From: a virus
Virus record (IMG/VR): IMGVR_UViG_3300004369_000103
Location: 1 to 28,960 of that record
DNA length: 28,960 nt
Strand: one strand, 5' to 3'
In this document: one piece after another, positions 100 through 28,960 of the stretch
Position numbering within the stretch: position 1 is the stretch's first letter
How the letters are laid out: each line of letters starts with the position of its first letter
The notes under the pieces: model-generated
Told to the model about the DNA's origin: nothing
The model's database searches: none
What the model saw: only the letters and a program-made list of their open reading frames with translations
Translations under genes and position numbers: made by a program

Positions 100-443
100 A
101 GCGCTTCGCACCTCTTGTGCATGGCAATCGTAAAATCTACGAGTTTGGCCGTGACGCCGCGTTCCGAATCGAAAAGGCGCAGGACGGTTCTACGGTTTAT
201 GCGGTGTTGGCTGTTGACGGTGAGGACGGGGTTCCGCGTCTGGTGGAGGATGGTTGGCTCTGGGTAGAACCGCTGCGCTTCCTCGAGGGTCGGTCCGAAG
301 AACGGTTTTGTTTGCAGGAGGCACCAGCTGGCTATGCCGTAGCTGCCTAGGCGCTCGTGGCCTACGTTCATCTGGCTGGCTCTGTGGATGGCGGCTATCC
401 ATCCTGTTCCGCTTCGCGGCGGTGCCACGATGATGGGGTTCAA
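1..443 (-). CDS. Sulfotransferase-like P-loop protein, N-terminal part (gene split by contig ends)
   Basis: On the circular molecule the gene runs 443 to 1, then 28861 to 28762, giving 180 residues. Residues 4-15 read IIVAPPRSGTGW, the form of the 5'-phosphosulfate-binding loop of PAPS-dependent sulfotransferases. Residues 69-78 read TRNPVLTVNS, the form of the 3'-phosphate-binding motif (RNP followed by Ser). The family transfers sulfate from PAPS to sugars, proteins or small molecules; the substrate here is unknown. The protein is short for a sulfotransferase (usually 250 or more residues), so it may be minimal or degenerate. The likely start is a TTG at 443-441 that overlaps the TerL stop (TTGA); a later GTG at 428 would remove the first strand. 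It lies between TerL and portal in one operon. The family call is by motif only. Confidence 0.62.
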   Translation of the reverse strand, partial: MNPIIVAPPRSGTGWIAAIHRASQMNVGHERLGSYGIASWCLLQTKPFFGPTLEEAQRFYPEPTILHQTRNPVLTVNSQHRINRRTVLRLFDSERGVTAKLVDFTIAMHKRCEALTPNRYRVEDAFLKFAYLRKVDVSRNTKRNRLT

Positions 444-1996
444 AGCGCCAGGATTTCGAGGGTGGCTCCTTCTTCGCGGTCTTTGAGCATCTCTCCGAAC
501 GCCATCACGCTGGCTACTACGCCGTCGACCATCTGTCCTCGCGCATTGCGGTTTTTCGTGATTTTGATGTTGTCGGCTGGGTCTCTCGTGATGATGGTGC
601 ATCCGATTTGCCACCGCAGGCATTGGTTCCCGTCGTGGACGATTTGTCTCGCCACGTAGGCCATTTCCATCTGCTTGGTCGGGTAGCTCATCTCGTAGTA
701 GCCCTGTCCGAATGGCTGCATGTTCACGCCCGCGTCCAAAAGTTCGGGGACTATGTAGGTGCTGTATTTGCGGTCGAAGGCGACGCTGCGGATGTCGTAT
801 CGCGTGTGCTGGTCCTCTATGTAATCGCGGACGGCGGCGAAGTCGGTCACGTTGCCTGGGGTGATGGTGATGTCTCCTTGCTCGGCGTAGGCGAGGTAGT
901 CGACCCCTTCGGCTAGTTTCTTGTTGTCGGCTGTTTCTTGATTGCACCACTGGTGGACCTTGACGTAAAACCGTTCGGGGCTTTCCACCCAGACCATCGC
1001 GAAGGCAGTCAGGTCTCTGGTGGCGGCTAGGTCTAGTCCTCCGTAGGCGGGGAGGGTGGCGAGGTGCTCGTCATTTGGCCATGGACCGCGGCACCGCATC
1101 CACTCCTCGTCGGTAATCCATGCCTCCTCGCTCGTCGTCCAGACGTTTAGGTTCAGGCGTTTGAACGTGTTTACGTGGCTGGGGCTTTGCTTGGCTTTGA
1201 TGAGTTGGTCCCTGAAGTAGTCGGCTTGGCAGATGGTTCCGTATCCTGGGTTGGCCTTCCTCCATGTCGCTTCCTCGGTCCAGTCGTCGTCGGGGTCGGC
1301 GGCGTAGACGACGGGTAGGTAGCTGGGGTCGTCCACCGTTCCGTTTCTTACGGCTAGTGCGTACTCGTGCTGCTCCCAGCAGATGCTGTTTCGGTCGTGG
1401 CCTGCGGTGGTCAGGGCTATGATGATGGGTTCAAGGCGGGCGCCGACGCTGGTGGTCAGGACGTCCCAGAGTTCGCGGTTGCAAACGTGGAGCTCATCGA
1501 AAATGACGCCGCTGCAATTGAAACCGTGCTTGGTGCTGGCTTCCGCGCTGATGCTCTTGTAGAATCCGCCGCGGTACTTGATGGCGTACTGGGTTTGCTT
1601 GCACGCCTTGCTCAAGGTTCGGCTCTGTCGGACCATCCCGATTGCCGTGTCAAAAACGATGCGGGCCTGGGCTGCGTCGCCTGCTGCACTGATGATTTCT
1701 GGGCCGCGTTCCTCTAGGCCTGTTAGCAGGTACAGCGCTATCGCGGCGGTGAGGGAGCTCTTGCCGTTTTTGCGTGGAATCTCCACGTAGCAGGTTCGGT
1801 ATTTGCGGCGACCGTCGGCGCGCTTCCAACCGAAAAGGGGGCGGATGATGTCGTCCTTCTGCCATGGCTCCAGCAGGAACCGTCCCGTGTGCCCTTTGAC
1901 GTGCGAGCAGTAGGTCTCAATGAATCGGACGGCGTGGTCGGCGGCGGCTGCGTCGAAGTAGTCCCCGTCCCGTAGGTTACAGGGCGATGAAGTCAT
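440..1996 (-). CDS. terL: Terminase large subunit (TerL)
   Basis: This is the 518-residue packaging motor, which drives DNA into the prohead with ATP and cuts the concatemer. PRKNGKS at residues 74-80 is the Walker A-like loop. GVIFDELH at 163-170 is Walker B plus the catalytic carboxylate. GGLDLAATRDLTA at 319-331 opens the RNase H-like nuclease domain with Asp322, and a DGVVASVMA segment near the C-terminus supplies a late acidic residue. Length and motif spacing fit the Terminase_1 (YmfN-like) family. The ATG at 1996 overlaps the end of the P27-type TerS gene by 20 nt, and the TGA at 442-440 overlaps the start of the sulfotransferase-like gene, so the block is one operon. Confidence 0.95.
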   Translation of the reverse strand: MTSSPCNLRDGDYFDAAAADHAVRFIETYCSHVKGHTGRFLLEPWQKDDIIRPLFGWKRADGRRKYRTCYVEIPRKNGKSSLTAAIALYLLTGLEERGPEIISAAGDAAQARIVFDTAIGMVRQSRTLSKACKQTQYAIKYRGGFYKSISAEASTKHGFNCSGVIFDELHVCNRELWDVLTTSVGARLEPIIIALTTAGHDRNSICWEQHEYALAVRNGTVDDPSYLPVVYAADPDDDWTEEATWRKANPGYGTICQADYFRDQLIKAKQSPSHVNTFKRLNLNVWTTSEEAWITDEEWMRCRGPWPNDEHLATLPAYGGLDLAATRDLTAFAMVWVESPERFYVKVHQWCNQETADNKKLAEGVDYLAYAEQGDITITPGNVTDFAAVRDYIEDQHTRYDIRSVAFDRKYSTYIVPELLDAGVNMQPFGQGYYEMSYPTKQMEMAYVARQIVHDGNQCLRWQIGCTIITRDPADNIKITKNRNARGQMVDGVVASVMAFGEMLKDREEGATLEILAL

Positions 1997-2288
1997 CGGC
2001 GTGTTCTGTTCCTTGCCCGCGTTGGGTCATTTTGTCGACCAGGACGCAGAGGCGTTGTCGCGCTTCCTGGAGCTGCTGGTATTCTGGCCGAGCGCGCGAG
2101 TAGGTGTCGCTCTTGCCGCGCACCAGGTAGGTCGGTCCGTGTTGGTTGATGAACCGCTGGAGCTTGCCTAGTTCAACCTCGACGCAGGCCATCATGCGGA
2201 GCAGGGTCTTGTCTCCTGCGTCCAATTCTCGCACCTCGCTCCATTCCTGCATCAAACCTTGGAACCGTTCGAATTGCTCGGGGTCCAT
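1977..2288 (-). CDS. terS: Terminase small subunit, P27 family
   Basis: The 103-residue product contains LLRMMACVEVELGKLQRFI, HGPTYLVRGKSDTY and RARPEYQQLQEARQRLCVL. These are the helical, GPTY and PEY..L....RL blocks of P27-family small terminases, which form the ring that recognises phage DNA and loads TerL. The first ATG is at 2288, but the same frame is open upstream with P27-like basic residues (for example KSNPTQAFTANIASHPRR). The true start may therefore be a non-ATG codon close to the HNH stop at 2408, such as the CTG overlapping it. TerL follows with a 20-nt overlap. The family call is good; the start is uncertain. Confidence 0.85.
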   Translation of the reverse strand: MDPEQFERFQGLMQEWSEVRELDAGDKTLLRMMACVEVELGKLQRFINQHGPTYLVRGKSDTYSRARPEYQQLQEARQRLCVLVDKMTQRGQGTEHADDFIAL

Positions 2289-2407
2289 CCACGCCTCCGT
2301 CGCTGGGGTCCCTTTACTTTTGACCCTCCTCGGATGAGAGGCGATGTTGGCGGTGAAGGCTTGAGTTGGGTTTGATTTTGTGACCCCCCTATCCCCTTTT
2401 TCGTTCT

Positions 2408-2677
2408 TCAGTCCTCCTTCGCTCGTTTGGTGTTGTGGCAGCTCGCGCACATTGGTTGGTGATTGTCTGCTCGCCAGAAGAGGTCGGGTCTCTGGCGTGC
2501 TGGTGTGATGTGGTCCACGACGGTCGCGGGTCTCTCGCAGTGGATGCAGACGGGGTTCACGGACAGGAAACGCCGACGGTAGTTGCGCCAGCGTTGCGTG
2601 TGGTAGTTCGTCTCTATGTCTTTGGACGGCTGGGTCACCCATGTTGCTGGTCTTTGTCTGGTTGGGATGGTGGGCAT
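2408..2677 (-). CDS. HNH endonuclease
   Basis: The 89-residue protein carries a complete small HNH domain. It has C44xxC47 as the first zinc knuckle, VVDHI with catalytic D55-H56, N72 in the middle helix, and C77xxC80-H81 followed by NTKR. HNH proteins encoded next to terminase genes are known in several phages to act with the terminase in DNA packaging (the HK97 gp74 type). Its place directly before P27-TerS and TerL fits this role. The ATG at 2677 lies 43 nt inside the end of the upstream methyltransferase-like gene, so the two are probably co-translated. Confidence 0.88.
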   Translation of the reverse strand: MPTIPTRQRPATWVTQPSKDIETNYHTQRWRNYRRRFLSVNPVCIHCERPATVVDHITPARQRPDLFWRADNHQPMCASCHNTKRAKED

Positions 2678-3150
2678 GGGGTGGGGTGGGGGTGTGTGCA
2701 GACGTGTGTGGTCCGTCTGCCTTGGCTGTGGATGATTTGCTGGACCTCGCCTTGCATCATCTTGGCGACGTAGTTGCGGTGGCTGTCGTCGTAGACCACG
2801 GTTGCTCCTGGTTTGATGAACTGCTGGATGCGGTGGGCGTTCTCGCGCAGCCTGCCTGGCGGGCCGTCGATGACCACGATTTCGGCCAGCTGGACGCGGC
2901 GTTGCAGCTTCTTGGTGAGCATGTAGAACCCGTTGTCTAGCGGGGCGTAGATTGTCTGGATGCCTTTGCGCGTCAGCCAGTCGTACCACCTGTAGTCGTG
3001 TTCAACGGTGAACCCGTAGAACGCGGCGTGCAGGTCTAGGCTTCCCGCCCCGCCTCCGAACTCGAGGAACGTGGCCTCGGGTCCGTGGGTCATCTTCAGG
3101 TAGTCGAGCACTTTGCGGTCCATCCTCCACTGGTCGTTATTCGCGTTCAC
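2635..3150 (-). CDS. SAM-dependent methyltransferase-like protein
   Basis: The 171-residue product starts at a GTG at 3150; an ATG at residue 10 (3123) is an alternative. FLEFGGGAGS at residues 28-37 has the form of the glycine-rich SAM loop (motif I) after a first beta strand. IVVIDGPPG at 91-99 and VVYDDSHR at 118-125 match later strands of a Rossmann-fold class I methyltransferase. The DGPPG and DD.HR pair recalls small-molecule or glycan O-methyltransferases more than DNA methyltransferases, and there is no DPPY motif. The C-terminus after residue 145 is His/Pro-rich and overlaps the HNH gene. The substrate is unknown. It sits in the packaging operon, not beside the DNA methyltransferase. 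Confidence 0.55.
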   Translation of the reverse strand: MNANNDQWRMDRKVLDYLKMTHGPEATFLEFGGGAGSLDLHAAFYGFTVEHDYRWYDWLTRKGIQTIYAPLDNGFYMLTKKLQRRVQLAEIVVIDGPPGRLRENAHRIQQFIKPGATVVYDDSHRNYVAKMMQGEVQQIIHSQGRRTTHVCTHPHPTPCPPSQPDKDQQHG

Positions 3151-3283
3151 GGTATCCTGGTTTGCCTGTCAATTCCCACAGCGCGAACTTGGCCTTCCGT
3201 GCGACCGTGTCATTTCCTTGCGCGAGCGCGATGTGCCTTAATCGCCGCAACCGTTGGATGGTCTGGAGGGTGGCTGGCTTCAT
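3137..3283 (-). CDS. Small basic protein (48 aa), unknown
   Basis: This short frame begins at the ATG at 3283 inside the 3' end of the second NinG-like gene. It ends in a TAA at 3139-3137, inside the start of the methyltransferase-like gene, so it bridges the two without a gap. The product is basic and predicted helical (for example RLRRLRHIALAQGNDTVARK) and contains LWELTGKPGY. No family is recognised. Without it, about 60 nt between the neighbouring genes would be unoccupied in a tightly packed operon, which mildly supports it. A chance frame cannot be excluded. Confidence 0.45.
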   Translation of the reverse strand: MKPATLQTIQRLRRLRHIALAQGNDTVARKAKFALWELTGKPGYRERE

Positions 3284-3692
3284 AGCGCGCATCGACCGTT
3301 GCGACCAACCGTGCATTCCGCTGGGCCAGAAATCGTGCCCGTTCACGGAGTCGGTCTTTGTCCAGTTTGGTGCTTCGCTTGGCTCGGTGGAGAATGTCGT
3401 CGGCAAGTCCTGGCCGCACCTCGTTGAGCTTGGTTCCGTAGATGTACTGCTGTCCTTGGTGGTACAAATTGCAGGCTCGGCATTGGGGTCTGGTATTCTC
3501 TTGGCTCCAACGGGTGGCCATGTGCCTCCTAGACGCAAAATGTCCGCAGTGGAGATTCCTAGGATGGTCAGCTCGTCCGCACGTCCAGCACCGCGCTTCT
3601 CCGCGTAGGTCGGCTGCGCTGTATCGCACGTAGACGCTCCACTCCCTGTCGAGCTCTGCGACGGCGATTTGGAGTGGTGTTTTTTTGGGCAT
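3210..3692 (-). CDS. NinG/Rap-like recombination nuclease, second copy
   Basis: The 160-residue protein has the zinc and HNH-like core of lambda NinG (Rap): C35xxC38, HCGH with C49 and H51, MATRW, then C71xxC74-N75. NinG-type proteins cleave branched DNA at recombination junctions. The core matches the first copy at 6112-6504 in motif order and spacing, but the flanks differ: here a long basic C-terminal tail (residues 90-160) follows the core. The ATG at 3692 lies 13 nt after the stop of the TerS-like gene. Its place in the packaging operon suggests a role on concatemers before packaging, which is inference. Confidence 0.8.
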   Translation of the reverse strand: MPKKTPLQIAVAELDREWSVYVRYSAADLRGEARCWTCGRADHPRNLHCGHFASRRHMATRWSQENTRPQCRACNLYHQGQQYIYGTKLNEVRPGLADDILHRAKRSTKLDKDRLRERARFLAQRNARLVATVDARYEASHPPDHPTVAAIKAHRARARK

Positions 3693-3705: not shown

Positions 3706-4035
3706 TCATCTCCATTCGATTTGTGGGTTGTCTGCTTGTGTCACCTCTTGCCTCTCCACGAATCCTCGGTGCTTCCCCTTTGTTTTCAGGTAGAACAAAA
3801 TCGACGCGGTGTCCTCGTCCTGGATGCGCTTGAGCAGTTTGCCCTCTACGAAGTCTAGGGCTACCTCTTGGATTTCGTCGCACGCCTCTGCGAAGTCGGA
3901 ATCGATGAGGCGCCATTCGTAGTAGGTGCTTCGGTGGATTCCTACGGCCTTCGCGGTCTGGGTCACGATTCCGAGGTTCTTTTCAAGTGCCTGTAGGAAG
4001 GCCTTTTTTCTCGTGTCGGTTTTGTCGGATTTCAT
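3706..4035 (-). CDS. HTH protein resembling phBC6A51-type terminase small subunit
   Basis: The 109-residue protein has an N-terminal helix-turn-helix (residues 12-45, with VTQTAKAVGIHRSTYYEWR as the two helices). It continues with DSDFAEACDEIQEVALDFVE and a segment reading SILFYLKTKGKHRGF. This combination is typical of the DNA-binding phBC6A51-like family, usually annotated as terminase small subunit. Because a P27-type TerS lies directly before TerL, this protein may be a second packaging-recognition factor or may have been repurposed. Its ATG overlaps the PLD-like gene stop (ATGA). Confidence 0.75.
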   Translation of the reverse strand: MKSDKTDTRKKAFLQALEKNLGIVTQTAKAVGIHRSTYYEWRLIDSDFAEACDEIQEVALDFVEGKLLKRIQDEDTASILFYLKTKGKHRGFVERQEVTQADNPQIEWR

Positions 4036-4865
4036 CCTTTAGAACGGTGCCGCCGTTTGATTCGGGTTGTTGTTTTTGGGTCGTTGACCTCGTCGTCCGC
4101 TGCCTGGGGTCCGTCCTGGACCGCGGCTTGCGTTGTAGCTTGCATATTTGCCTGAACCGCTTGCCATAATTTCTTGTGTCTGATTGGTTTTTGAATGACT
4201 GCGTACTCGGCTAGAATCGCGTTGTGGAAGTCCAGGTAAAACTCGAAAAGCTCGGGGTTCTCCTCGATGCAGGTTTGCTCTAGGCACCCGCTGCTTCGGA
4301 GGTTGGCGCTTCCGTGCATCACGATTTTTTTGCCGCCGTACGTCTCAAAGATAGCGATTTTGGTGTGGCTGCCTGCGACCCCTAGTTGGAAGCGGTCCTC
4401 GTGGTCTAGTTCGTGGAGCATGTAGGGCACTAGGTTCTTGCGCTCGTGGGCGTAGAAGTAGTCGCTGACGATGAGGTCTAGCTTGTCCACCCATCCGTCG
4501 TGGAGCAAATTGGCGAAGCTGTCTATGTTGTTTTGGCTCATGGAGAGGGTGCTCACGCTCATGTGCTTGACTCGTGCGTTTCTCTCTTTGAGCAGGGCCT
4601 CGATGAAATCGCCGAACTCGAAGCTGCCCGCGGTTATCATGTGGCTGCGTGTGCCGTCGCCGATGTCGATGTAATTGGCCGCGCGGATGGCGTGGCTGTA
4701 CTTGACGTGCTTCTCTTTGATGCCCTTGAACGGTGGCGGGTTGTGGTAGCGGTCGCGGTTCTCGTTGATGAAATCGTTTTCGAAGTCTAGGCCTCCAAGG
4801 TCTAGGTCTAGGTCGAATTGGAATCCGTAGTCGGGTGTGGCGTCGTTGTCTGTTTCGTTGTTCAT
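4032..4865 (-). CDS. Phospholipase-D-like (PLDc) protein
   Basis: The 277-residue product starts at the ATG at 4865, overlapping the methyltransferase stop by ATGA. After an acidic N-terminus (residues 1-40), a compact domain reads MITAGSFEFGDFIEALL (76-92), then SHTKIAIFE (166-174), with H167 and K169 as the HxK of a PLD active site. GSANLRSSGCLEQ (185-197) is the conserved strand-loop after it. Only one HxK is present, so an active enzyme would need to dimerise, as single-motif bacterial nucleases of this superfamily do. The canonical Asp of HKD is not at its usual spacing. Likely roles are DNA processing or a scaffold partner of the upstream ParB-methyltransferase. Confidence 0.7.
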   Translation of the reverse strand: MNNETDNDATPDYGFQFDLDLDLGGLDFENDFINENRDRYHNPPPFKGIKEKHVKYSHAIRAANYIDIGDGTRSHMITAGSFEFGDFIEALLKERNARVKHMSVSTLSMSQNNIDSFANLLHDGWVDKLDLIVSDYFYAHERKNLVPYMLHELDHEDRFQLGVAGSHTKIAIFETYGGKKIVMHGSANLRSSGCLEQTCIEENPELFEFYLDFHNAILAEYAVIQKPIRHKKLWQAVQANMQATTQAAVQDGPQAADDEVNDPKTTTRIKRRHRSKG

Positions 4866-6115
4866 AGCACGGGGGTGTGTTCGATTTTGGTTATCTCGAT
4901 TGTGGGGTCTAGCTCCTGCATGCGGTCTAGGATGACTTGGCAGTACTGGGGGTCTAGCTCCACTCCGAAGCATCGGCGGTTTAGCTGGTGGGCTGCGACC
5001 ATGGTGCTCCCGCTGCCAAGGAAACCGTCGAGCACGATTTGGTCCTCGAGGGTGCTGTTCTGGATGAGGTGGCCCATCAGGGTGACGGGTTTCATGGTCG
5101 GGTGTTCCTTCGAACTGCTCGGCTTGTCGTGATGGATGACGGTGCTGTGTGCCTTGAACATTTGCTCCAGGAGCGCGGTCATCTCTTTCTTGTTCAGCTT
5201 GGTCAGGTCGATTGGTTCGTCGAGGATGGTCGTTGGGAGCGTGCGGTCCTCGGTGAAGTAGTGCGCGGCGCCTGGCTTCCATCCGTAGAGGCATGGCTCG
5301 TGTTGCCATTGGTAGTCCTGCCTTCCTAGCACCAAGCTGTTCTTGACCCAGATGAGTGTTTGCTTGTGGCTGACGTTGGCGGCGGCCATGGCTTTGCGGA
5401 AGTTCAATCCTTCGCTGTCGGCGTGCCAAATGTACCACGCTCCTCCTAGTTTGACCCGTTCGTTCATGGCTGTGAAGCTGTCGGTGAGAAACGCTAGGAA
5501 GGCGGCGTTTCCCATTTTGTCATTCTCGATTTTTTTGCCGTTGCTTCCTGTGTAGTCCACGTTGTACGGCGGGTCGGTCACCACCGCATCCGCCCATTCA
5601 TCGGGGAGGAGTGTTTCGAAGGTTCGGGCGTCGGTGCTGTCTCCGCAGATGAGTCTGTGTGGTCCAATCAGGAAACGGTCGCCGCGGCTGATGTTGGTGT
5701 GGATGACGTCTGGCAGTTCGTAGTTGTCCTCCTCGACGGGTTCCTTGTCTTGTTTGTAGTCGGGTATGTCGACACCCCATGCTTCGAGTTCGGTTGCGTC
5801 GAAGTCGTTTGCGAGGATGTCCCAGTCCCATTCGCCGTAGCTGGCGTTGTCTTTGATGATGAATCGCCGCTGCTTTACCTCGTCCCAGTTGGCGGTGTAA
5901 ACGGGGACCAGCTCCATTTCCGCTTCGCGCGCTGCCTTGAGCCGCATGTTGCCTCCCAGCACCATCCCGTTGGGGTCGGTGACGATGGGTCGCGCCTCTA
6001 GCATCTCGGGGTCCTCTTTCAAGCTCTCGACCAGCAGTCGGAACTTGCGGTTCTTGATGACGCGGGGGTTGTTGGGGTTGAGCTTGAGTTCGCTCGGCTT
6101 GCGGTATTCTATCAT
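4862..6115 (-). CDS. ParB-like nuclease domain fused to N6-adenine DNA methyltransferase
   Basis: The 417-residue protein has an N-terminal ParB-like domain (residues 1-80, LNPNNPR, then PIVTDPNGMVLGGNMRLKAA). A methyltransferase domain follows. Its catalytic TDPPYNVDY is at 180-188, and the SAM-binding DGFLGSGSTMVAA is at 363-375, followed by CFGVELDPQYC. DPPY before FxGxG is the beta-class order, which methylates adenine N6 in DNA. This fusion is common in phages and protects phage DNA from host restriction or marks it. The ATG at 6115 overlaps the NinG stop by ATGA, and the PLD-like gene is coupled downstream. No cognate restriction nuclease is present. Confidence 0.93.
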   Translation of the reverse strand: MIEYRKPSELKLNPNNPRVIKNRKFRLLVESLKEDPEMLEARPIVTDPNGMVLGGNMRLKAAREAEMELVPVYTANWDEVKQRRFIIKDNASYGEWDWDILANDFDATELEAWGVDIPDYKQDKEPVEEDNYELPDVIHTNISRGDRFLIGPHRLICGDSTDARTFETLLPDEWADAVVTDPPYNVDYTGSNGKKIENDKMGNAAFLAFLTDSFTAMNERVKLGGAWYIWHADSEGLNFRKAMAAANVSHKQTLIWVKNSLVLGRQDYQWQHEPCLYGWKPGAAHYFTEDRTLPTTILDEPIDLTKLNKKEMTALLEQMFKAHSTVIHHDKPSSSKEHPTMKPVTLMGHLIQNSTLEDQIVLDGFLGSGSTMVAAHQLNRRCFGVELDPQYCQVILDRMQELDPTIEITKIEHTPVL

Positions 6116-6504
6116 GGGGTGAGCTCCTTGGCGCGGTTGGCTATGTCGAGTATCTCGTCGGTGTCAAATTTGACGATTTGGTTGCCTAGGGCGACCAAGC
6201 TGTCGGCGGCTCCTGGTCCGTATCGGGCATCGATGGCTTCTGCGAATTTGGCCGACCGACCGCAGTGGTGGCGATTGCAAGTGCGGCACTGGGGGGCGAG
6301 GTTCATGGCGTTCCACCGCGTGGCCATCTTGAGGCGTGGGACGAAGTGGCCGCAGTCCATCATTTTCCACGGTTGTCTTGTGCCGCACGTGATGCATTCC
6401 GCTCGGCCTGTGTGGTCCGCGGCGGCTGAACGGATGAGCGTACTGACGGCGCGGTCTGCTTTTTGGATTGCTTTCGCCCGTGATTGCGGTGTTTCTCTAT
6501 CCAT
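6112..6504 (-). CDS. ninG: NinG/Rap-like recombination nuclease, first copy
   Basis: The 130-residue product from the ATG at 6504 carries C37xxC40, MDCGHF with C51 and H53, KMATRWN (60-66), then C73xxC76-N77 and CGRS. This is the NinG core that binds zinc and resolves recombination intermediates. An upstream in-frame TTG at 6531 is a weaker start. The gene overlaps the small membrane-protein gene by 145 nt in another frame and is coupled to the methyltransferase downstream by ATGA. Its position just after replication genes is typical of NinG. Confidence 0.87.
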   Translation of the reverse strand: MDRETPQSRAKAIQKADRAVSTLIRSAAADHTGRAECITCGTRQPWKMMDCGHFVPRLKMATRWNAMNLAPQCRTCNRHHCGRSAKFAEAIDARYGPGAADSLVALGNQIVKFDTDEILDIANRAKELTP

Positions 6505-6611
6505 TGTCTTTCGCGTTCCTTGTGTTTCCAAATTTCAAGCAGAAACCAGGAAAATGCAAAAAGGCCCGCGACGCTGATTGCCAGGATGCTTATTGCGGCT
6601 GGTTCACTCAT
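6360..6611 (-). CDS. Small single-pass membrane protein (83 aa)
   Basis: Residues 5-26 form one hydrophobic segment (AAISILAISVAGLFAFSWFL). A basic, charged tail rich in Arg, Lys and Gln follows, so the topology is probably N-out with a cytoplasmic tail. The ATG at 6611 lies in an ATGAGTGA overlap with the preceding gene's stop, which supports translation. The last 145 nt overlap NinG in a different frame, so the low-complexity tail may be tolerated and not selected. No family is recognised. A role at the host membrane is inference. Confidence 0.6.
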   Translation of the reverse strand: MSEPAAISILAISVAGLFAFSWFLLEIWKHKERERQWIEKHRNHGRKQSKKQTAPSVRSSVQPPRTTQAERNASRAAQDNRGK

Positions 6612-7227
6612 GGCCTTGCTTGTGCTTGCCTGGTATGTAGAATGGGTTGTTCTTCTTCATCACGTCTGCCATGGTTTGGGGTTCGTACTTGATTTTGCTT
6701 GGGTCGTGGCGGACGTCGTCCAGTCCGTATCGGGTGTGCTTGCGCTCAAGGTAGGCGCTCCTGTCGAGTTCTGTTTTGCTCAGGCATTCGGTGAACTCCT
6801 GAATTTTCAACCGTTCGTAGAATTTCCCGAATCGGCCCGTCATCATGCCGTCGCAGGTCATCCGCAATTCCTCGAGGGTCAGGGTGGGGTAGTTCCGCAG
6901 GATGGTCTCGACGGTGAGGATGATTCCTTCCTCGTCCAGGGTCTTTTTGGCGTCTACGAAGTTGACCGTTTTCTGGACCATGGCTATCATGGCTAGTCGC
7001 GTCATCTCGGGTCGGCGGCGCAGGGCCGTCTGGATGTTGGTGCCTTGGTCGAAGGCCTCGGCTGGGGTCAGCTCAAAGAGTCCCGCTTTCGACGTACGCT
7101 CTATACTTGTCAGTGTCTTTTGGACCAGCCGCTCCTCCCGTTGCGCGAGTTCGGTCGAGTGGGAAGAGGCCCTTCCATCCTTTGGCGATGGTTTGTCTGA
7201 TGATGGCGATTGCGGTTTGTTCGTCAT
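6604..7227 (-). CDS. DUF6633-like conserved phage protein
   Basis: The 207-residue protein has a Pro/Ser-rich N-terminus (residues 1-25) and a helical core. The core contains TILRNYPTLTLEELRMTCDG and GRFGKFYERLKIQEFTECL, then LDRSAYLERKHTRYG. The pattern YP.LTLEE followed by G.(F/Y)GK.Y.RL resembles DUF6633-type proteins found beside replication genes in Bacteroidota phages; their function is unknown to me. The ATG at 7227 gives a 155-nt overlap with the upstream HTH gene. No alternative ATG occurs before residue 75, so either the overlap is real or a non-ATG start is used. Confidence 0.6.
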   Translation of the reverse strand: MTNKPQSPSSDKPSPKDGRASSHSTELAQREERLVQKTLTSIERTSKAGLFELTPAEAFDQGTNIQTALRRRPEMTRLAMIAMVQKTVNFVDAKKTLDEEGIILTVETILRNYPTLTLEELRMTCDGMMTGRFGKFYERLKIQEFTECLSKTELDRSAYLERKHTRYGLDDVRHDPSKIKYEPQTMADVMKKNNPFYIPGKHKQGHE

Positions 7228-7765
7228 GGTTGCTCATTTTGAGGAGGTCGTCGATGGCGACCTGTTGCTGGAAGTGGTTTGCGTATTTGAATCTGTGCGC
7301 GGCGCGTCGGTAGTCGAGGTACTCGGTCCATGCTCCTTTGAAGTTCTCCCCCCATGGCAGTATTAACTCATGGGTTTTCTCTACGGTGTTCCTCTTTGTT
7401 TTACTAGTGGTCCTTTTTGGCCTGGCAGGCGGGTCCTTTTGGTCGGTCTGTTGGTTCGTTGTGGTCTGGCTGTCGGACCATTTTGGTCTGTCTGCTGGGT
7501 CTAATGTGGACCGCATGCTTCGGCGACGTCCGTCGAAGTTGGTCCTCTCTATGTAGCCCAGTTCGGTCAGGTGCTTGATGGCTCTCTTGACGGTGGTCGG
7601 GCTGCATCCCAAAAAGGCGGCGATGGTCTCGTTGGCTTTGAAGTAGTCCGCTTCGCGGCTGGTGAACGAGTCCACCTCGGCCAGCAGAACCTTCTCGGTT
7701 GCTGTGAGGCGCTCGTCCAACCAGACCGCTGCGGGTATCCAAATCCCAGCAAATTTTCGGGTCAC
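7073..7765 (-). CDS. Winged-HTH replication protein (HTH_36/DnaD-like arrangement)
   Basis: The 230-residue protein starts with GTG at 7765 (GTGA overlap with the Cro-like gene stop). Residues 12-85 form a winged helix: LDERLTATEKVLLAEVDSF, then NETIAAFLGCSPTTVKRAIK as the recognition region, and LGYIERTNFDGRRR as the wing. This resembles the HTH_36 domain of phage replication initiators. A Gln/Thr/Lys-rich linker (about 95-130) precedes a helical C-terminal domain ending AIIRQTIAKGWKGLFP, as in DnaD or lambda O-like proteins. It probably binds the origin and recruits host helicase, since no phage helicase or polymerase was seen. The last 155 nt are shared with the next gene. Confidence 0.75.
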   Translation of the reverse strand: MTRKFAGIWIPAAVWLDERLTATEKVLLAEVDSFTSREADYFKANETIAAFLGCSPTTVKRAIKHLTELGYIERTNFDGRRRSMRSTLDPADRPKWSDSQTTTNQQTDQKDPPARPKRTTSKTKRNTVEKTHELILPWGENFKGAWTEYLDYRRAAHRFKYANHFQQQVAIDDLLKMSNHDEQTAIAIIRQTIAKGWKGLFPLDRTRATGGAAGPKDTDKYRAYVESGTL

Positions 7766-7986
7766 AGGATTTGCTGTTCGCGCCGCATGACGGCTTCGAC
7801 CACTTCGGCGTAGTCAATGTCGGCGAGTTCGGTCAATTCGGGCAGGTACTTCAGCATGTTCCGTGGGCAGGTCCCGACCCAATCTGTTACGGTGCTCGTG
7901 CTCACCCGTAGGTGGCGGGCAAGGTCTTGGTAGTTGCCGAAGTGCTGGTAGATGAATCCTTTGAGGGGGTTGGCTTGGGTCATCAT
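7762..7986 (-). CDS. Cro/C1-like helix-turn-helix protein (74 aa)
   Basis: Residues 18-40 (NYQDLARHLRVSTSTVTDW) have the spacing of a lambda-repressor-type helix-turn-helix. The rest is short and helical. The start is one of two tandem ATGs at 7986 and 7983; the first overlaps the upstream stop by ATGA. As the only compact regulator-like protein in the genome, it is a candidate for controlling the repeated promoters upstream, which is inference. No partner repressor or divergent operator was seen, so a temperate switch is not supported. Confidence 0.7.
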   Translation of the reverse strand: MMTQANPLKGFIYQHFGNYQDLARHLRVSTSTVTDWVGTCPRNMLKYLPELTELADIDYAEVVEAVMRREQQIL

Positions 7987-8387
7987 GCTTGTTGTTTTAG
8001 TTCGTGGACTAGTTCGTTGCGGGCTTCAATCAATCGGCGGCTGCGGTGCAGGAGGGTGTCCATGTCGTAGGCGGCTCCTGCCATCGATTGGCTTGCCACC
8101 TGGATTGCCCAGCTCGCTTCTATGTACGGCGTGCGGTCCTCGCGCGATTTGGTCGGTGCGGCGTTGCCGTAGCCAGGCTTGTCGAAACGGAAACGGTGCC
8201 CGTAGTCCGTTTTCTCGACCACCTCTACTTCGACCTCATCGCCCTCTTTCCAGCGGTCTGGGGTTCTTGCGTTGACGGTGCCCTTGCGACCGTCGGAGAG
8301 CTCAATGTTCAGCGTGTGCATCTGGTCACCGCGCTTCGTTTGCCAGCTCTCTTTGTAGCTGGCGCTTGTGATTGTGGCTGTTGCCAT
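7983..8387 (-). CDS. Putative OB-fold single-strand-binding-like protein
   Basis: The 134-residue product begins at the ATG at 8387, after an A/C-rich leader with no Shine-Dalgarno. Residues 1-70 contain alternating strands with a glycine turn and WKEGDEVEVEVVEKTDYG, which looks like a small OB-type barrel. The remainder is helical and ends LIEARNELVHELKQQA. Proteins of this shape often sit next to RecE-like nucleases and are thought to bind ssDNA. The gene is directly downstream of the RecE-like gene (11-nt gap). The assignment rests on architecture and context, with no diagnostic motif. Confidence 0.45.
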   Translation of the reverse strand: MATATITSASYKESWQTKRGDQMHTLNIELSDGRKGTVNARTPDRWKEGDEVEVEVVEKTDYGHRFRFDKPGYGNAAPTKSREDRTPYIEASWAIQVASQSMAGAAYDMDTLLHRSRRLIEARNELVHELKQQA

Positions 8388-21161: not shown

Positions 21162-21493
21162 TTTTTTGTCTTTTGGCCATCGTCAATGTTGAGGGCCTGC
21201 GCGATGTTCTCGGCAAGTGCGGCGTAATCGCTGGAACCCAGAAGGACGCGGAACCGACCCTCGTCTAGGGTCGGCTCCTTTCCTTCGAGTAGGTAGTGTG
21301 TACGAACTCCCGCCCATGTCAAATCTGGCAGTGCTTCCAGTGGCTGCTCCTGGAGGAGCTTGTCTAGGTCTGTCAGCTTGTGCTTGCCTTCGCGGCACCA
21401 AAGGCCGAGGGCGTGCATGTTGAGCAGGCATGGCACCGTTGTGCCGTCTGGGAGCTCTACTTCAAATTGTCCACGGAGGGGGTTTGTCATCAA
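21137..21493 (-). CDS. Tail assembly chaperone G
   Basis: The 118-residue protein begins MMTNPLRGQFEVELPDGTTV and has LLNMHALGLWCREGKHKL, a pattern usual for siphovirus G-type chaperones that coat the tape measure. It ends QKTKKKRVTRSR, and the Lys codons form the slip site. It lies directly after the major tail gene (ATGA overlap) and before the tape measure, the standard order. Confidence 0.85.
   Translation of the reverse strand: MMTNPLRGQFEVELPDGTTVPCLLNMHALGLWCREGKHKLTDLDKLLQEQPLEALPDLTWAGVRTHYLLEGKEPTLDEGRFRVLLGSSDYAALAENIAQALNIDDGQKTKKKRVTRSR
21158..21167 (-). promoter_or_regulatory. Programmed -1 ribosomal frameshift site
   Basis: On the minus strand nine A precede G, read in the G frame as ACA AAA AAA AAG. 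A slip of one base back after the second AAA gives AAA GAG GGT and enters the T frame, which stays open to 20826. The position at the 3' end of G and the conserved T-domain sequence immediately after the slip fit the lambda G/GT mechanism. Confidence 0.85.
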
Positions 21494-22005
21494 TCGTCGT
21501 TGTTGTTGAACGTCAGGTCACCTGTGTCCACGTATTTTTTGTAGACGAGGCCGTCTCCCTCAAAGGTAACGCTATAAGTCGCTACCTCGTTCAATCCAGC
21601 GCTTTCTTCGTAGCTGGTGATGTAGGCGTCGCCGTAGTAGATGGTGTCTCCTGTGACGCCTGTGCTCCATCCGACGCGGACTTTGGTTTTGTTGTCCCAA
21701 ATGTCGAAGAGGTCATCGGCTCCTGTGACGCTTGCTGCGAGTCCGTACTCGACGAGGCCTTCGGTGCTGATGCTCCAGGTGATGCCGCCTGTGAGGATTT
21801 CGCGCGCGCCGTCGTTGTCTTTCGTCGTCGCTTCGATGAGCTCGCGGGTGCCTGTGAAGGTTCCGCTTGTGGCGCATGCGACGAGTGCGAAGGTGTCTCC
21901 TTCTGCGCTGGTGTCACCGTAGGTGCCTCCTGTGACGGTGCTTCCTCCTGTGGTGTCGACCCAGACGCCGATGGCGTTACTTCTGATTTTTCCTGTTGTT
22001 GCCAT
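21490..22005 (-). CDS. Major tail (tube) protein
   Basis: The 171-residue protein begins MATTGKIRSNAIGVWVDTTG and is Gly/Thr-rich and strand-rich. It ends in EVATYSVTFEGDGLVYKKY, the usual last strands of TP901-1/lambda V-type tube proteins. Its position between the tail terminator block and the G chaperone confirms the role. Its first 415 nt are overlapped by the C-terminal extension of the glycosyltransferase-like gene in another frame. The upstream bases include ATTTGAACCAT, also found before the capsid gene. Confidence 0.88.
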   Translation of the reverse strand: MATTGKIRSNAIGVWVDTTGGSTVTGGTYGDTSAEGDTFALVACATSGTFTGTRELIEATTKDNDGAREILTGGITWSISTEGLVEYGLAASVTGADDLFDIWDNKTKVRVGWSTGVTGDTIYYGDAYITSYEESAGLNEVATYSVTFEGDGLVYKKYVDTGDLTFNNNDD

Positions 22006-22700
22006 GATGGTTCAAATTGTTGGTGTTCGGGGAATTTTCCCACCAAAGGTACGACAGGGTACTTTTGTGGTTTCGCTGCGAAGCTGTGATAGTTGTGGAG
22101 GTTCTCGTCGCTCTTGTAGTCGAGGATGAGTGGGGTCGCGTTGGCGATGCGGCAAACCGTTTGGATGCGTTTCATCCTGGTGTGGTAGTCGGCGTCTATG
22201 TTCTTCTCCTTGCGGTGGTTGTAAAGGCACCCGTATCGGCGGTAGGCCAGTTCGACGTGGCGGCGGTGGGTCATGCGTCCGACGTTGGAGAGGCCACCCC
22301 TGAACGCGCGGGTCTCGCCTGATTTCCATTCGACCAGGTAGAAGTCCGAGTGCGCTAGGTAGGTCTCTCCCTTGTTGATTTTCTCGACGACGCGTTCGAC
22401 CCAGCTTTCCTCGAGGATGTTGTCGCTGGCGTACTCCATGAACCATTCCCAGTCGGGGTTCTTTCGGATGTGCTTGGCGGCGGCTTCGAATTTGGTGCCT
22501 AGGGGGTTGTTGTCGACGCGGACGGTGTCGTATCCGTACTCGCGTGCGAGCTCCTCATCGCCGTCGTTGCTCACGGCGACGGTGACGAAACTGTCGAAGC
22601 CGTGTTCTTGAAATTGGCCACGGACGCGTTCAAGGGCAGTCCATGCGATGCGTTGCTGGTTGCGGCGTCGGTAGCTGGTGGCGTGGATGGCGATTCTCAT
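21591..22700 (-). CDS. Glycosyltransferase-like protein (GT-A type) with long overlapping tail
   Basis: The 369-residue frame starts at the ATG at 22700 (ATGA overlap with the tail terminator gene). Residues 1-225 resemble a small GT-A/GT2-like enzyme: MRIAIHATSYRRR at the first strand, VAVSNDGDEELAREYGYDTV (41-60) as the nucleotide-binding part, WFMEYASDN (86-94) with an acidic D-N site like DxD, and GGLSNVGRMTHRRHVE (135-150). Residues 232-369 lie wholly or mostly over the major tail gene in another frame and are Ser/Pro/Ala/Thr/Lys-rich without predicted fold. The tail may be unselected read-through. Placement inside the tail operon suggests sugar addition to virion proteins, which is inference. 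Confidence 0.6.
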   Translation of the reverse strand: MRIAIHATSYRRRNQQRIAWTALERVRGQFQEHGFDSFVTVAVSNDGDEELAREYGYDTVRVDNNPLGTKFEAAAKHIRKNPDWEWFMEYASDNILEESWVERVVEKINKGETYLAHSDFYLVEWKSGETRAFRGGLSNVGRMTHRRHVELAYRRYGCLYNHRKEKNIDADYHTRMKRIQTVCRIANATPLILDYKSDENLHNYHSFAAKPQKYPVVPLVGKFPEHQQFEPSWQQQEKSEVTPSASGSTPQEEAPSQEAPTVTPAQKETPSHSSHAPQAEPSQAPASSSKRRRKTTTARAKSSQAASPGASAPKASSSTDSQQASQEPMTSSTFGTTKPKSASDGAQASQETPSTTATPTSPATKKALD

Positions 22701-23077
22701 TCTCTTTCGAAGTGTATGTCGTAGCGCTGTGTCACGCTGAAGAAGTCGGTTGCGGTGAAGATGTCGGTTGCTTGGTTCACGAACCTGCCAAAAAGGACGG
22801 GGCCGATGGTCTGCCATCCGTCGAGCTGGGCGCGAACCAGAACGGCGGCGTCCCATGCTGACTTGGGGTTGGTGTGGATGACGGTCACTTCGACGGTGTG
22901 GACCTCCTGCGTGCTCTCGGCGTCGTGGGTGTCAATTGGGTCTGTGCCTGTCAGCTGGACCACGATTGCTGGGACGGTGCTCTGCTGCAAACGGTACAGC
23001 GGGTAGATGTCTCCTGGGTCCACGATGGCTGTGAGTCCTGCGCTGTCTTGGAGGCGGTCGATGACGTAATTTATCAT
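22697..23077 (-). CDS. Tail terminator/completion protein (DUF3168-like)
   Basis: The 126-residue protein has a helix start (MINYVIDRLQDSAGLTAIV), then IYPLYRLQQSTVPAIVVQL, a strand segment with VTVIHTNPKSAWDAAVLVRA, and QRYDIHFERE at the end. This is the alpha/beta pattern of DUF3168/gpU-type proteins that cap the tail tube. Position after the gp10-like protein and before the tube protein agrees. Both ends overlap neighbours by ATGA-type joins. Confidence 0.78.
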   Translation of the reverse strand: MINYVIDRLQDSAGLTAIVDPGDIYPLYRLQQSTVPAIVVQLTGTDPIDTHDAESTQEVHTVEVTVIHTNPKSAWDAAVLVRAQLDGWQTIGPVLFGRFVNQATDIFTATDFFSVTQRYDIHFERE

Positions 23078-25352: not shown

Positions 25353-27257
25353 TTACGCTGATGCGAGGTCTCCACAAATGCTGAAGGCGCCAGGTTGGCG
25401 GACTGCGACGTCGTAGAAACGGTTGCAGTGCAGCTTCACCTGACCCGTGCTTGCGGCGGTGTATGGGTCCACCAGGATGTCGATTCCCGAGAAGTAGGCA
25501 ATGATGAGGCCTTGGCGGAAGTTGCCGAAGATTTGCTGGCCGACCGTTCCTGCGGTCTCGTCGGCGACGTGCTTGGTGGCGTAGAAGTTGTAGCCGTTGA
25601 GGCGTCCTCCTTCGACCAATGCTGAAACCGATTGCACAAGGGCGAGGCTTTTGGCCAGTCGGTACGCTGTGGGGCTGCAAACGTAGACCGAACCGTTGAG
25701 CGCTCCGCCTGCCGCGAGGACTGCTGCCTCTTGTGCGATGGCTACGGTCGCTGCGTAGGTTGTGTCGCCTGCGCCTGACGTTGATTGGTCATCGACGTTG
25801 CCGTCGGCGAGAATCTCGGCAAATCCTTTCAGGTCGATGTGCTCGGTGAGTGCTGCGCGGATGTCGGCTGCAATGACCTGGTCGACTTGCTGGCCTCCTT
25901 GGATGAGGAGTTGCTTGGAGTACGTCGTGCTCGCCGTTGCGCGCGTTGGGTTGAGGTTGACCTCGTCCATCTCGATGCTGGCTCCCGCTTCGGTTGAAAT
26001 TTCACCCTTGTTGGTTGCCAAGGCTGGGGAACTGATGCGTGGGAACTTCAGGTTTCCTGTTGCTTGGATGGTCGTCGCTCCGAGGCTCTCGATGAATGAT
26101 GGCTCGCGGAGTGCGGCGATTGCTCCTGGGACGTCGGTGCCCACGAAGCCAGTACCATCGGCGGCGGTGCCTCCTGCCTTTGCTCCGTCAGCGGTGAAGT
26201 TGTCCTCCGCTGAACGGAAGAATGCCATTTGCGGGATGGCGACGCTGCCCGTTGGGGAGAGTCCCATGTGGCGCATTTCGCGGTGTGCCTCCGTCGTCCA
26301 TTCTGCTTCGGCTCCTTCGAGGGGCTGGTTGCGGCGGGCCTGGTCAAGGGCGCGGCTCAAAGAGAAGCGGTGGTTGATGCTCGCAATCTCTTTCATCTCG
26401 CTGGTGCCGCTGATGCCCGTGTAGGCTTGGCGGGCGACCATCTCTTGTTCGCGCGTCTTGTGCTTAATCTTGACGTCGGTCTGCTGGATGAGCTCGTCCA
26501 AACGGTCGGCGCGTTCTTGCTCGGCCTCGGTCATTGCGCGGCCTTCCTGGTCGGCACGCTGACCAAGCTCTACGAATTCCTCGTAGTAGGCTGCGCGTTG
26601 CCCTTTCAAATCGTTGATGTTCATTTTGGGGTTGGGTTTGGCTACAAATGTAGGGGATTTCTGTTGGGGTGTTTCACGCTCCTCTGGGGTCTCTGGCTCG
26701 GGGATTTCCTCGAGCACCGCCTCCTCGATTTTGGCCGAGAAGGCGTCGCGTGCCTGGACGGTCGTCGTGGGGTAGGCGGGGTATGTCACGACGGAGGCAT
26801 CGAACAGCTGTTTCACTTTGGTCACCGTTCGCAGGTTCTGCTCGGCGTCTACTTCGTCCTCTGCAATCGTGAAGGCGAAGCTCATGCTGTTGATGTCGCC
26901 GCGCTTGACCGCTGCGTAGACGTCTCGGCTCTGTTGGGTGTCGTTCAGTTCGGCTCGTGTCCACAGCCCTCCTTCGCGGACCTCGAGCTTGAGTGTTCCG
27001 TTGCTGGTGCGGGCCATCGGCATGCCTTTGTGGTTGAGCAGGTATCGGACGTCGTCGTCTAGACGGTCGTCGAACGCGCCGCGGGCGATGCGCTCTTTGA
27101 AGAATCCGAGGTCTGTCACCGTGTCGAAGTTGGCGGCGTATCCTTCGAGGACCATTTTGCCATCCTCGCTTGCTGCGCGCAGTTCCATGGTGCGCGTCTC
27201 CACCTCGGCTCCGTATTTGTCGCGGAGTTCAGTGGCTGTGAGTGGTGTGCTTTCCAT
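25353..27257 (-). CDS. Fused HK97-type prohead protease and major capsid protein (634 aa)
   Basis: Residues 22-175 are a U35-type prohead protease: EGYAANFDTVTD, LLNHKGMPMARTSNGTLKL (with H76), RDVYAAVKRGDINSMSFAF (with S124) and ASVVTYPAYPTTTVQAR. After a Glu/Pro-rich linker (180-211), residues 212-290 form the scaffold-like delta domain (MNINDLKGQRAAYYEEFVEL and a coiled coil). The HK97 capsid fold fills the rest, with SIMDEV-like SIEMDEVNLNPTRATA and a final QPGAFSICGDLASA. Fusion of the two functions occurs in some phages. An internal ATG at 26624 (residue 212) would give capsid alone. TACATTTG lies four bases before the first ATG. Confidence 0.93.
   Translation of the reverse strand: MESTPLTATELRDKYGAEVETRTMELRAASEDGKMVLEGYAANFDTVTDLGFFKERIARGAFDDRLDDDVRYLLNHKGMPMARTSNGTLKLEVREGGLWTRAELNDTQQSRDVYAAVKRGDINSMSFAFTIAEDEVDAEQNLRTVTKVKQLFDASVVTYPAYPTTTVQARDAFSAKIEEAVLEEIPEPETPEERETPQQKSPTFVAKPNPKMNINDLKGQRAAYYEEFVELGQRADQEGRAMTEAEQERADRLDELIQQTDVKIKHKTREQEMVARQAYTGISGTSEMKEIASINHRFSLSRALDQARRNQPLEGAEAEWTTEAHREMRHMGLSPTGSVAIPQMAFFRSAEDNFTADGAKAGGTAADGTGFVGTDVPGAIAALREPSFIESLGATTIQATGNLKFPRISSPALATNKGEISTEAGASIEMDEVNLNPTRATASTTYSKQLLIQGGQQVDQVIAADIRAALTEHIDLKGFAEILADGNVDDQSTSGAGDTTYAATVAIAQEAAVLAAGGALNGSVYVCSPTAYRLAKSLALVQSVSALVEGGRLNGYNFYATKHVADETAGTVGQQIFGNFRQGLIIAYFSGIDILVDPYTAASTGQVKLHCNRFYDVAVRQPGAFSICGDLASA
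26622..26652 (-). promoter_or_regulatory. Possible internal promoter element and start for the capsid domain
   Basis: On the minus strand TACATTTG (26652-26645), a TAnnTTTG match, is followed by an A/C-rich stretch (AGCCAAACCCAACCCCAAA) and an in-frame ATG at 26624, exactly at the protease/scaffold boundary. The same TACATTTG occurs before the whole gene. No -33 TTG was seen, so promoter activity is uncertain. Confidence 0.4.
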
Positions 27258-27282: not shown

Positions 27283-27588
27283 TTATCCTTCGGAGTCGAT
27301 TTCTCTGACCTTGGCAGCCGCCCACCGTTTGGCGGCGAGTCCTCCCCAGAGCAGGTAGCTGATGGTCCCGCAGGCGGTTTTGTCTTTCGGGTCGTAGTAG
27401 GTTTCGGCTCTCTGGAGGTAGGCGTGCATCCGCTTGACGCGGGCCTTGGAAAGTGGGCGGCGTCCGACCAGGATGCGCGCGGTCTCCTTTCCGACGGCTG
27501 TAGCGCATTTGCCTCCTTGCCTCTGATTGAGCATCTGCCCTGTCTTGGCGTTGTTGCTCATGGCTTGTGGGTAATCACTGAACGCCAT
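27283..27588 (-). CDS. Conserved small phage protein (TISYLLWGG motif), unknown function
   Basis: The 101-residue protein contains QMLNQRQGGKCATAVGKETA, then ARVKRMHAYLQRAETYYDP and GTISYLLWGGLAAKRWAAAK. This pattern (KCAT.VGK, RAE.YYDP, GTISYLLWGG..A..W) recurs in small proteins encoded near structural genes of Bacteroidota phages as far as I recall; no function is known to me. The ATG at 27588 overlaps the portal stop region by 14 nt, and the capsid gene follows after 25 nt. It could help head assembly or simply travel with the block. Confidence 0.72.
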   Translation of the reverse strand: MAFSDYPQAMSNNAKTGQMLNQRQGGKCATAVGKETARILVGRRPLSKARVKRMHAYLQRAETYYDPKDKTACGTISYLLWGGLAAKRWAAAKVREIDSEG

Positions 27589-28765
27589 CCTGCTCTCCTG
27601 AAATCTTACGGCTGTACTCGGGGAACTGGTCCAGGCTGACCTGGTTCAATTGGACCATGTGGGCGTCTCCTCCCGTGACGGGGTTCATGTCCTCCTTGGC
27701 GCGGACCTCGTTGATGCTCATGGCGCCTAGACGGACCATGCCTTCGTAGTAGTTGACGCGGGCGTCCATGTCTCCTCGGGCCATGCTATTGAGGTCAAAC
27801 CGTGCGTAGGTTTGTGGGCGCTCGCGGGCCTGGATGAGTTTTCGGTTGATTTCGTGTTCTAGCTTCTTTGCCCACGGCGCGATGGTGTGCCTGGAGAACA
27901 TGAGGTTTTGCTGTTCCACGTTGTTGTACGTGGTCTGGCTCTCTAGCTGGATGAGCGCTGGTGGCACGCCAAAAATTCGAGCCACTTCTTCGGCTTGGAA
28001 CTTGCGGACTCCTAGGAACTGTGCCTCGTCGGGTGTGATGGTGATGCGCTGGTACTTCAATCCGTGGGGCACCAGTTTGGTGGTTGCGCTGCCTTGCTCG
28101 CGCCAGCTTGAGCGGATGCTCTGCATCTGTTCTGCTCGAAGTGTTTGGTCGGTGGTGAGGATTCCTGTCGCTTGGCCTTCATCGAAGTACTGGGCACCGA
28201 ACCGTTGCGCGCTCTGGGCGAGTCCTAAATTTTCGCGGTGGAGGCGGATGGGGCTTTTGCGCTGGATGTTGTACAAGCAGAGCATGTTCTCTGGGTAGAC
28301 GATTCTCCCGCTCACCTTGAAGGCCACCCCTGCGGGCACCTCGATTTCTTCTACTTTGTCGGTGGGGACGACGGTCATCTCGGTTGCGTATCCTCGGTCG
28401 TCTCTCTCAATCACGGCGTGGCCTCGTCCGTGCAGGACGGCGTAGCTCACGAGCGTCTCCCAAAATTCGGGCGCCGTTTGGTAGTCGTTGGGGCTGTTGC
28501 GGACGAGGTCGTAGGCGGGGTGGTTGACCGCTGGTTGTTTGGTCCCGTTGCTTTCCAGGAGGACTTGCAGGTCGAGGGTTGAAACGGTCGAGGCGATTCG
28601 GTAAACGCACGCGTAGACGGCGCTGATGGCCATCGCATTCTTTTCGTTGACGTAGGCTCCGCTCGTGGTCATCGCGGTGATGCCGAGTTCGTTGGCGAGG
28701 GTGGTGCTGTCGTATTTGCCCACGCGGTATCTGAAGAGTTGGGCGAGGCGGTCTCGAATCGTCAT
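27575..28765 (-). CDS. Portal protein, HK97 family
   Basis: The 396-residue protein has the HK97 portal pattern: AISAVYACVYRIASTVSTL near the start, NHPAYDLVRNSPNDYQTAPE, then FWETLVSYAVLHGRGHAVIE, and later FQAEEVARIFGVPPALIQLE and a C-terminal IHEVR-like SINEVRAKEDMNPVTGGD. The dodecameric ring at one head vertex is the DNA channel and binds TerL and the connector. The ATG at 28765 overlaps the sulfotransferase-like gene stop by ATGA. The usual portal-protease-capsid order is kept, with one small gene between. Confidence 0.94.
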   Translation of the reverse strand: MTIRDRLAQLFRYRVGKYDSTTLANELGITAMTTSGAYVNEKNAMAISAVYACVYRIASTVSTLDLQVLLESNGTKQPAVNHPAYDLVRNSPNDYQTAPEFWETLVSYAVLHGRGHAVIERDDRGYATEMTVVPTDKVEEIEVPAGVAFKVSGRIVYPENMLCLYNIQRKSPIRLHRENLGLAQSAQRFGAQYFDEGQATGILTTDQTLRAEQMQSIRSSWREQGSATTKLVPHGLKYQRITITPDEAQFLGVRKFQAEEVARIFGVPPALIQLESQTTYNNVEQQNLMFSRHTIAPWAKKLEHEINRKLIQARERPQTYARFDLNSMARGDMDARVNYYEGMVRLGAMSINEVRAKEDMNPVTGGDAHMVQLNQVSLDQFPEYSRKISGEQDGVQ

Positions 28766-28960
28766 TTGATGTGTTTTGTCATTTCTGCTTCGGTGTATCC
28801 GTAGCGCGCGCCAAGTTCAAGCAGTGCCTCGATTCGGTTGTCTGGCACCTCGGACCATCTGGGCGTGAGTCGGTTGCGCTTGGTGTTGCGGCTGACGTCT
28901 ACTTTGCGAAGGTACGCGAACTTCAGGAAGGCGTCCTCGACGCGGTATCGGTTGGGCGTC
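28762..28960 (-). CDS. Sulfotransferase-like protein, C-terminal part (continues from position 443..1)
   Basis: This is the 3' end of the gene described at 1-443. Bases 28862-28960 repeat bases 1-99, so only 28762-28861 are new sequence. The frame enters open at the window edge and ends in the TGA at 28764-28762, which overlaps the portal ATG (ATGA). The C-terminal residues are charged and helical (for example PRWSEVPDNRIEALLELG) with no recognisable motif. The short overlap with portal indicates translational coupling. In a linear annotation the gene would be missed or called as two fragments. Confidence 0.6.
   Translation of the reverse strand, partial: TPNRYRVEDAFLKFAYLRKVDVSRNTKRNRLTPRWSEVPDNRIEALLELGARYGYTEAEMTKHIK
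28862..28960. repeat. 99-bp terminal overlap, right copy
   Basis: This is the second copy of bases 1-99. Removing it gives a circular unit of 28,861 bp in which the sulfotransferase-like gene is intact. Confidence 0.95.

Follow-up and report, generated by a model that had tools for sequence, protein, structure and literature searches.

A putative glycosyltransferase gene that runs into the major tail protein gene of an environmental tailed phage, and its possible role in virion decoration

The occurrence of genes for three group-transfer enzymes among the virion genes of a small tailed phage raises the question of whether these enzymes act on the virion itself. The window, by which we mean the whole stretch of 28,960 nucleotides that was analysed, is a tailed-phage record in which the minus strand carries nearly all of the virion genes, and it belongs to a family of uncultured environmental tailed phages with genomes of 25–32 kb. 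A first-pass annotation had proposed that a glycosyltransferase (GT)-like protein of the tail operon, a sulfotransferase (ST)-like protein encoded between TerL and the portal and a methyltransferase (MTase)-like protein encoded among the packaging genes together decorate the virion. Here, each gene, its surroundings and its distribution among related phages are considered in turn.

A glycosyltransferase-like gene of the tail operon

The GT ORF (21591–22700, minus strand) begins with an ATG at 22700 that overlaps the stop codon of the tail terminator gene (ATGA; 22697–23077, minus strand, 126 amino acids; Pfam Tail_completion_gp17, E = 5e-7). No stop codon precedes the gene for the major tail (tube) protein (MTP; 21490–22005, minus strand; Pfam Phage_tail_2, E = 6e-13; PHROG major tail protein, E = 9e-27), and the ORF continues for 137 codons into the +1 frame of this gene. 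The enzyme portion is confined to 22008–22700 (231 amino acids), and the last 137 residues, which with the stop codon occupy 21591–22007 and are rich in Pro, Ser, Thr and Ala, lie out of frame over the MTP gene. In G004/L171 (7597–10062), G017, G021, G024 and G031 the tail terminator has a long C-terminal extension (255–821 amino acids in total), which is absent in the window.

The AF2 model of the GT domain (the first 231 residues), based on an input alignment of 17 members, has a pLDDT of 93.4. Foldseek matched this model to SpsA with an E value of 3e-9 and a TM score of 0.68, and VIA-align matched it to Leptospira 6p61 (Z = 18.6) and to SpsA (Z = 18.2). The residues R12, K70, F71, E89, D93, N94, N139, R142, D169, D194 and K196 are invariant across the 17 members; the position of the DXD motif is occupied by xSDN, in which the second Asp (D93) is the invariant one and the first is replaced by Ala, Gly or Cys, and D169 is a candidate for the catalytic Asp base. 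The Pfam PF00535 scores of the window GT (17.8 bits) and of L138 (21.1 bits) lie below the cut-off of 23.3 bits. A profile search of genome contigs, based on the GT alignment, yielded no relative, and sequence searches of the PDB with the GT, the MTase and the ST-like protein gave nothing useful. From the model we infer that the ORF encodes a phage GT-A glycosyltransferase of a conserved tail-operon family, which is presumably catalytic.

A search with an MTP alignment yielded 80 viral contigs, which together with the window, and with L002 counted once, give 81 loci. An iterated HMM placed a GT directly upstream of the MTP gene in 63 of them; the same MTP without a GT is present in the other 18, and the tail can therefore do without the enzyme. 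Across all of the searches, a match in L085 was discarded as spurious. In 58 of the 63 loci the GT stop codon is found at the start of MTP or no more than about nine codons into it, and the GT frame runs much further in five genomes: 137 codons in the window, 96 in L002, 87 in L083, 139 in L086 and 166 in L164, in which it spans the entire MTP gene. The GT is a conserved core gene of the tail operon, and its translation is coupled to that of the tail terminator and of MTP. The first-pass annotation was thus right to place a GT-like gene inside the tail operon: the ORF is real, overlaps the tail terminator and shares its location with 62 homologues, its out-of-frame portion over MTP had gone unremarked, and structure prediction, which had been suggested as a check, gave a GT-A fold by AF2, Foldseek and VIA.

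The out-of-frame extension over the major tail protein gene

The stop-free length of the overlap is by itself mildly unusual (p = 0.01–0.10), and the +1 frame of MTP is partly open without being used in many controls (28–94 codons). Because this openness is weakly unusual, substitution patterns were used as the test, and chance openness was rejected as the full account of the overlap. Fusion of GT to MTP by −1 frameshifting was also rejected, since no convincing slippery heptamer was found and MTP has its own ATG.

Between L002 and L083, nine of 47 four-fold degenerate sites differ in the overlap versus 20 of 35 in the rest of MTP, with corresponding divergences of 0.56 in the upstream GT domain, 0.58 in the terminator and 0.47–0.53 in other genes (overlap versus all other regions, p = 1e-5). 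Recombination was rejected as the source of this low divergence, as the flanking parts of GT and MTP are normally diverged. All ten pairs of the five genomes, which are not independent pairs, show lower divergence in the shared overlap than in the rest, and the window/L086 pair gives p = 0.10 on its own. In 1890 control pairs of MTPs without an overlap the first and second parts diverge to the same extent (0.52 versus 0.53), which rules out a general constraint on the 5' part of MTP.

The composition of the overlap points in the same direction. T occupies the third position in 13 of 545 MTP codons within the overlap, compared with 25 of 205 in the rest of MTP and 392 of 6415 in other genes of the same genomes (p = 4e-7 and 1e-4), and the higher values in these other genes argue against genome-wide composition as the cause. 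A T at this position is the second base of a GT codon, where it mostly gives a hydrophobic residue or forms part of a stop codon. Hydrophobic residues make up 1–5% of the GT tails versus a mean of 18% in the homologous, unused frame of other MTPs. These statistics represent five genomes and perhaps two or three lineages; the MTP tree permits a single clade of overlap genomes (p-AU = 0.28), the GT tree argues against one (p-AU = 0.02), and L164 forms a long branch. Since synonymous divergence and third-position T are lowered only within the overlap, dual coding is supported, and on these substitution tests in five genomes we favour a GT tail that is translated and selected.

The synonymous constraint might instead reflect an RNA element or a signal for the translation of MTP. 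RNA structure could fix third positions, and MTP is presumably highly expressed; however, MTPs without an overlap show no such constraint, the extent of the constraint follows that of the overlap, and the loss specifically concerns third-position T, which is hydrophobic or stop-forming in the GT frame. This alternative to a coding GT tail is therefore considered to be unlikely.

Methyltransferase-like and sulfotransferase-like genes of the packaging region

The MTase ORF (2635–3150, minus strand) has a GTG start, overlaps its neighbours and encodes a class I SAM-methyltransferase-like protein with the motif I LEFGGGAGS. It is flanked by a small gene and by an HNH endonuclease-like gene (2408–2677, minus strand; colinear in G006, G032, G021, G014, G016 and G031), upstream of the genes for a small terminase-like protein (1977–2340, minus strand; assigned from its position and a homologue in L002) and TerL (440–1996, minus strand; Pfam TerL_ATPase/TerL_nuclease). 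Homologues of the window MTase occupy the same slot in G006 (41% identity) and G032 (29%), and ExGxG, DGP and DD, corresponding to motif I and an acidic loop, are conserved in four members. With Pfam PF13578 (cut-off 26.3 bits) the window MTase gives no hit and the G006 homologue scores 20.3 bits; the AF2 model of the window MTase from its single sequence has a pLDDT of 44. This small genome also encodes two NinG-like/HNH-type proteins (3210–3692 and 6112–6531) in addition to the HNH gene at 2408–2677, and a PLD-like protein (4035–4850; PF13091, E = 0.04) flanked by homeodomain-like and ParB/DNA-methyltransferase genes.

Domains of the MTase family occur joined to two distinct GTs in viral contigs. 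One fusion, in L084/L193/L194, is with the Mnn9-like GT that is also seen in UOF80513.1 of podovirus MW202691 (28% identity to the window MTase, E = 4e-6), which is encoded in the interval from the coat protein to the tail accessory factor; there the two domains form a single protein, whereas the window encodes its MTase as a protein of its own and has a GT of a different family. The other fusion, in L197, is with a DDD-type GT, for which Pfam support is weak. Among the GT-bearing relatives, Methyltransf_24 MTases of subfamilies other than that of the window MTase are found between the portal and MCP (G004, G008, G014, G019, G020 and G026) or in the slot upstream of HNH–TerS–TerL (G011, G017 and G021), and a second GT2 (Pfam E = 3e-9) occupies the same slot in G004, G011, G014, G016, G017, G020, G021 and G026. 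An MTase and/or a GT2 is present in this slot in 11 of the 11 GT-bearing genomes in which it is covered, with the slots of G004, G017 and G026 read across the contig ends on the assumption of circularity; because these genomes are related, they stand for fewer independent events, of about four types. The colinear slot is empty in G031, the one GT-less genome examined there.

The ST-like ORF crosses the contig junction. An exact repeat of 99 bp at the two ends (1–99 = 28862–28960), which may be a short terminal repeat or may stem from overlap in the assembly of a circular genome, closes the record to 28,861 bp, and the frame of the ORF holds with or without this repeat, as 99 is a multiple of three. 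The ORF starts with a TTG at 443 inside the TerL stop codon (N-terminal part, 1–443, minus strand), continues across the junction (C-terminal part, 28762–28861, minus strand) and ends at about 28762 over the ATG of the portal gene (27575–28765, minus strand; Pfam Phage_portal, E = 2e-83). The 180-residue product carries PAPS-type motifs, PRSGTGW for the 5'-PSB (PRSGT) and RNPVLTVNS for the 3'-PB (R-x-P-x5-S), and matches Pfam Sulfotransfer_3 (PF13469) with E values of 0.008–0.019 (15.7–16.8 bits, against a cut-off of 27). In the adjoining head region, a prohead protease (S78) and an HK97-type major capsid protein share one fused ORF at 25353–27257, with matches of similar length recurring among relatives, and in G033 (L183) about 3 kb from MCP to the head–tail connector (5077–8339) lack a clear gene on the virion strand.

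The positions given to these two genes in the first-pass annotation, an MTase-like gene coupled by overlap among the packaging genes and an ST-like gene overlapping both TerL and the portal, agree with the present analysis, in which the former ORF has several homologues and the latter contains both PAPS-type motifs. The expectation that the three genes co-occur across related phages did not hold: the ST-like gene was found in none of 40 relatives and in none of the viral contigs, and the MTases of the relatives are of different subfamilies. A single conserved module of three enzymes was accordingly rejected. A search of phage records with the ST-like protein returned nothing beyond one marginal partial match, TerL and portal are almost adjacent in L002 and G006, and nothing relevant was found in the literature on phage sulfotransferases alongside virion genes. 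By sequence comparison, the ST-like gene is a private insertion in the window genome, and a role for its product in sugar tailoring is a guess.

Possible targets and comparison with known systems

The proposal of a three-enzyme virion-decoration system survives in part. The GT-A fold, the core position of the GT in the tail operon, the fusions of the MTase family to GTs and the sugar enzymes in the packaging and head operons of relatives are in its favour, whereas the absence of the ST-like gene from the 40 relatives is against it. The explanation that we regard as modestly probable is glycosylation of a virion protein by the tail-operon GT with lineage-specific tailoring, combined with a selected overprinted tail in five genomes. 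The GT would take a sugar from a host nucleotide-sugar and attach it to a virion protein that is produced when and where the GT itself is, the prime candidate for the acceptor being the tail tube protein MTP, and lineage-specific enzymes would then tailor the sugar; in the window these would be the MTase and possibly the ST-like protein. By the use of another frame of the MTP gene, the GT of the window and those of four relatives would have gained a long, hydrophilic and disordered C-terminal tail, and the substitution tests indicate that selection keeps this frame open, hydrophilic and slow-changing. Speculatively, the tail may keep the enzyme near the nascent tail protein or may just solubilize it.

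Alternatively, the enzymes may modify host surface glycans late in infection, for receptor masking or superinfection exclusion, rather than the virion. GT2-type enzymes, O-methyltransferases and sulfotransferases often act on surface polysaccharides, and the wall/capsule enzymes TarP, TarS and WrtF are among the Foldseek neighbours of the GT. We nevertheless hold this target to be unlikely, as no flippase and no partner resembling GtrA/GtrB was seen, the GT is fixed between the tail terminator and MTP over 63 loci and its frame is shared with MTP in five genomes, which would be odd for an enzyme of host glycans. There is a still smaller chance that the GT is non-catalytic, with a structural or chaperone role in tail assembly, and that the loss of a stop codon produced the overlap, which persists as a frozen accident. 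The fixed place next to MTP, the replacement of the first Asp of DXD and the partial openness of the unused +1 frame would be compatible with this, but the polar residues D93, N94, E89 and D169 are invariant, the GT is missing from 18 of the 81 loci and is associated with other sugar enzymes, and neutral read-through would not depress synonymous divergence or third-position T in the overlap only. Modification of phage DNA (glycosylated or hypermodified bases), suggested by DNA glucosylation as the best-known role of phage GTs and by a ParB-like/DNA methyltransferase protein encoded at 4862–6115, is very improbable, since the GT gene forms part of the late tail operon, the neighbours of the GT by fold are SpsA-like GTs for proteins or polysaccharides, the GT fusions of the MTase homologues are encoded next to coat and tail genes, and an unsystematic look at the window ORFs noticed no hydroxymethylase or nucleotide-pool gene.

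In conclusion, virion-protein glycosylation with lineage-specific tailoring is the reading that we prefer. More tentatively, and short of calling it probable, we suggest that a disordered GT tail of 87–166 residues under selection inside the MTP gene and an exchangeable tailoring slot by the terminase genes form a modular virion-decoration system, in which one stretch of DNA encodes both the enzyme and its likely substrate. What looks new, as far as our searches show, is the GT family together with its MTP-overprinted tail and the exchangeable slot. In this phage family, which has a conserved candidate enzyme next to the tail-tube gene as well as swappable MTases and a second GT, the role of virion sugars outside animals becomes testable.

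The GT shares its GT-A fold and GT2-like character with SpsA from Bacillus subtilis (1qg8 and 1h7l) and with Leptospira 6p61, and differs from them in its low identity (11–13%), a score below the Pfam Glycos_transf_2 cut-off, an altered DXD, an extra C-terminal motif FPEL and the overprinted tail. Like known same-strand overlaps of viruses, the GT tail is a C-terminal extension in an alternative frame that follows the trend of overprinted sequences to be Ser/Pro-rich and depleted in the base T (PMC6195259). Overlaps in DNA viruses are usually short, with a median of 15.6 nt and an interquartile range of 8.5–61 (PMC8903798), whereas the GT/MTP overlap covers about 264–417 nt and, in one genome, a whole gene. 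Among double-stranded DNA phages it is unusual for an enzyme gene to overlap a major structural gene over such a length, and the pair would offer a clean case in which to study overprinting. To our knowledge, glycosylation of the phage virion has been shown in few mycobacteriophages only. In Che8, Corndog and Myrna, phage-encoded GTs glycosylate capsid and tail tube proteins, as described in passages of PMC12363180 and PMC11256854 that cite Freeman et al. (2023). The window GT, for which tblastn matched none of the 50,697 records in the INPHARED phage set, differs from these systems in its location, immediately ahead of the MTP gene and partly within it, in the MTases or second GT that other virion operons carry, and in that glycosylation is here putative; it resembles them in being a phage-encoded GT, linked in this family to structural genes at 63 of 81 MTP loci.
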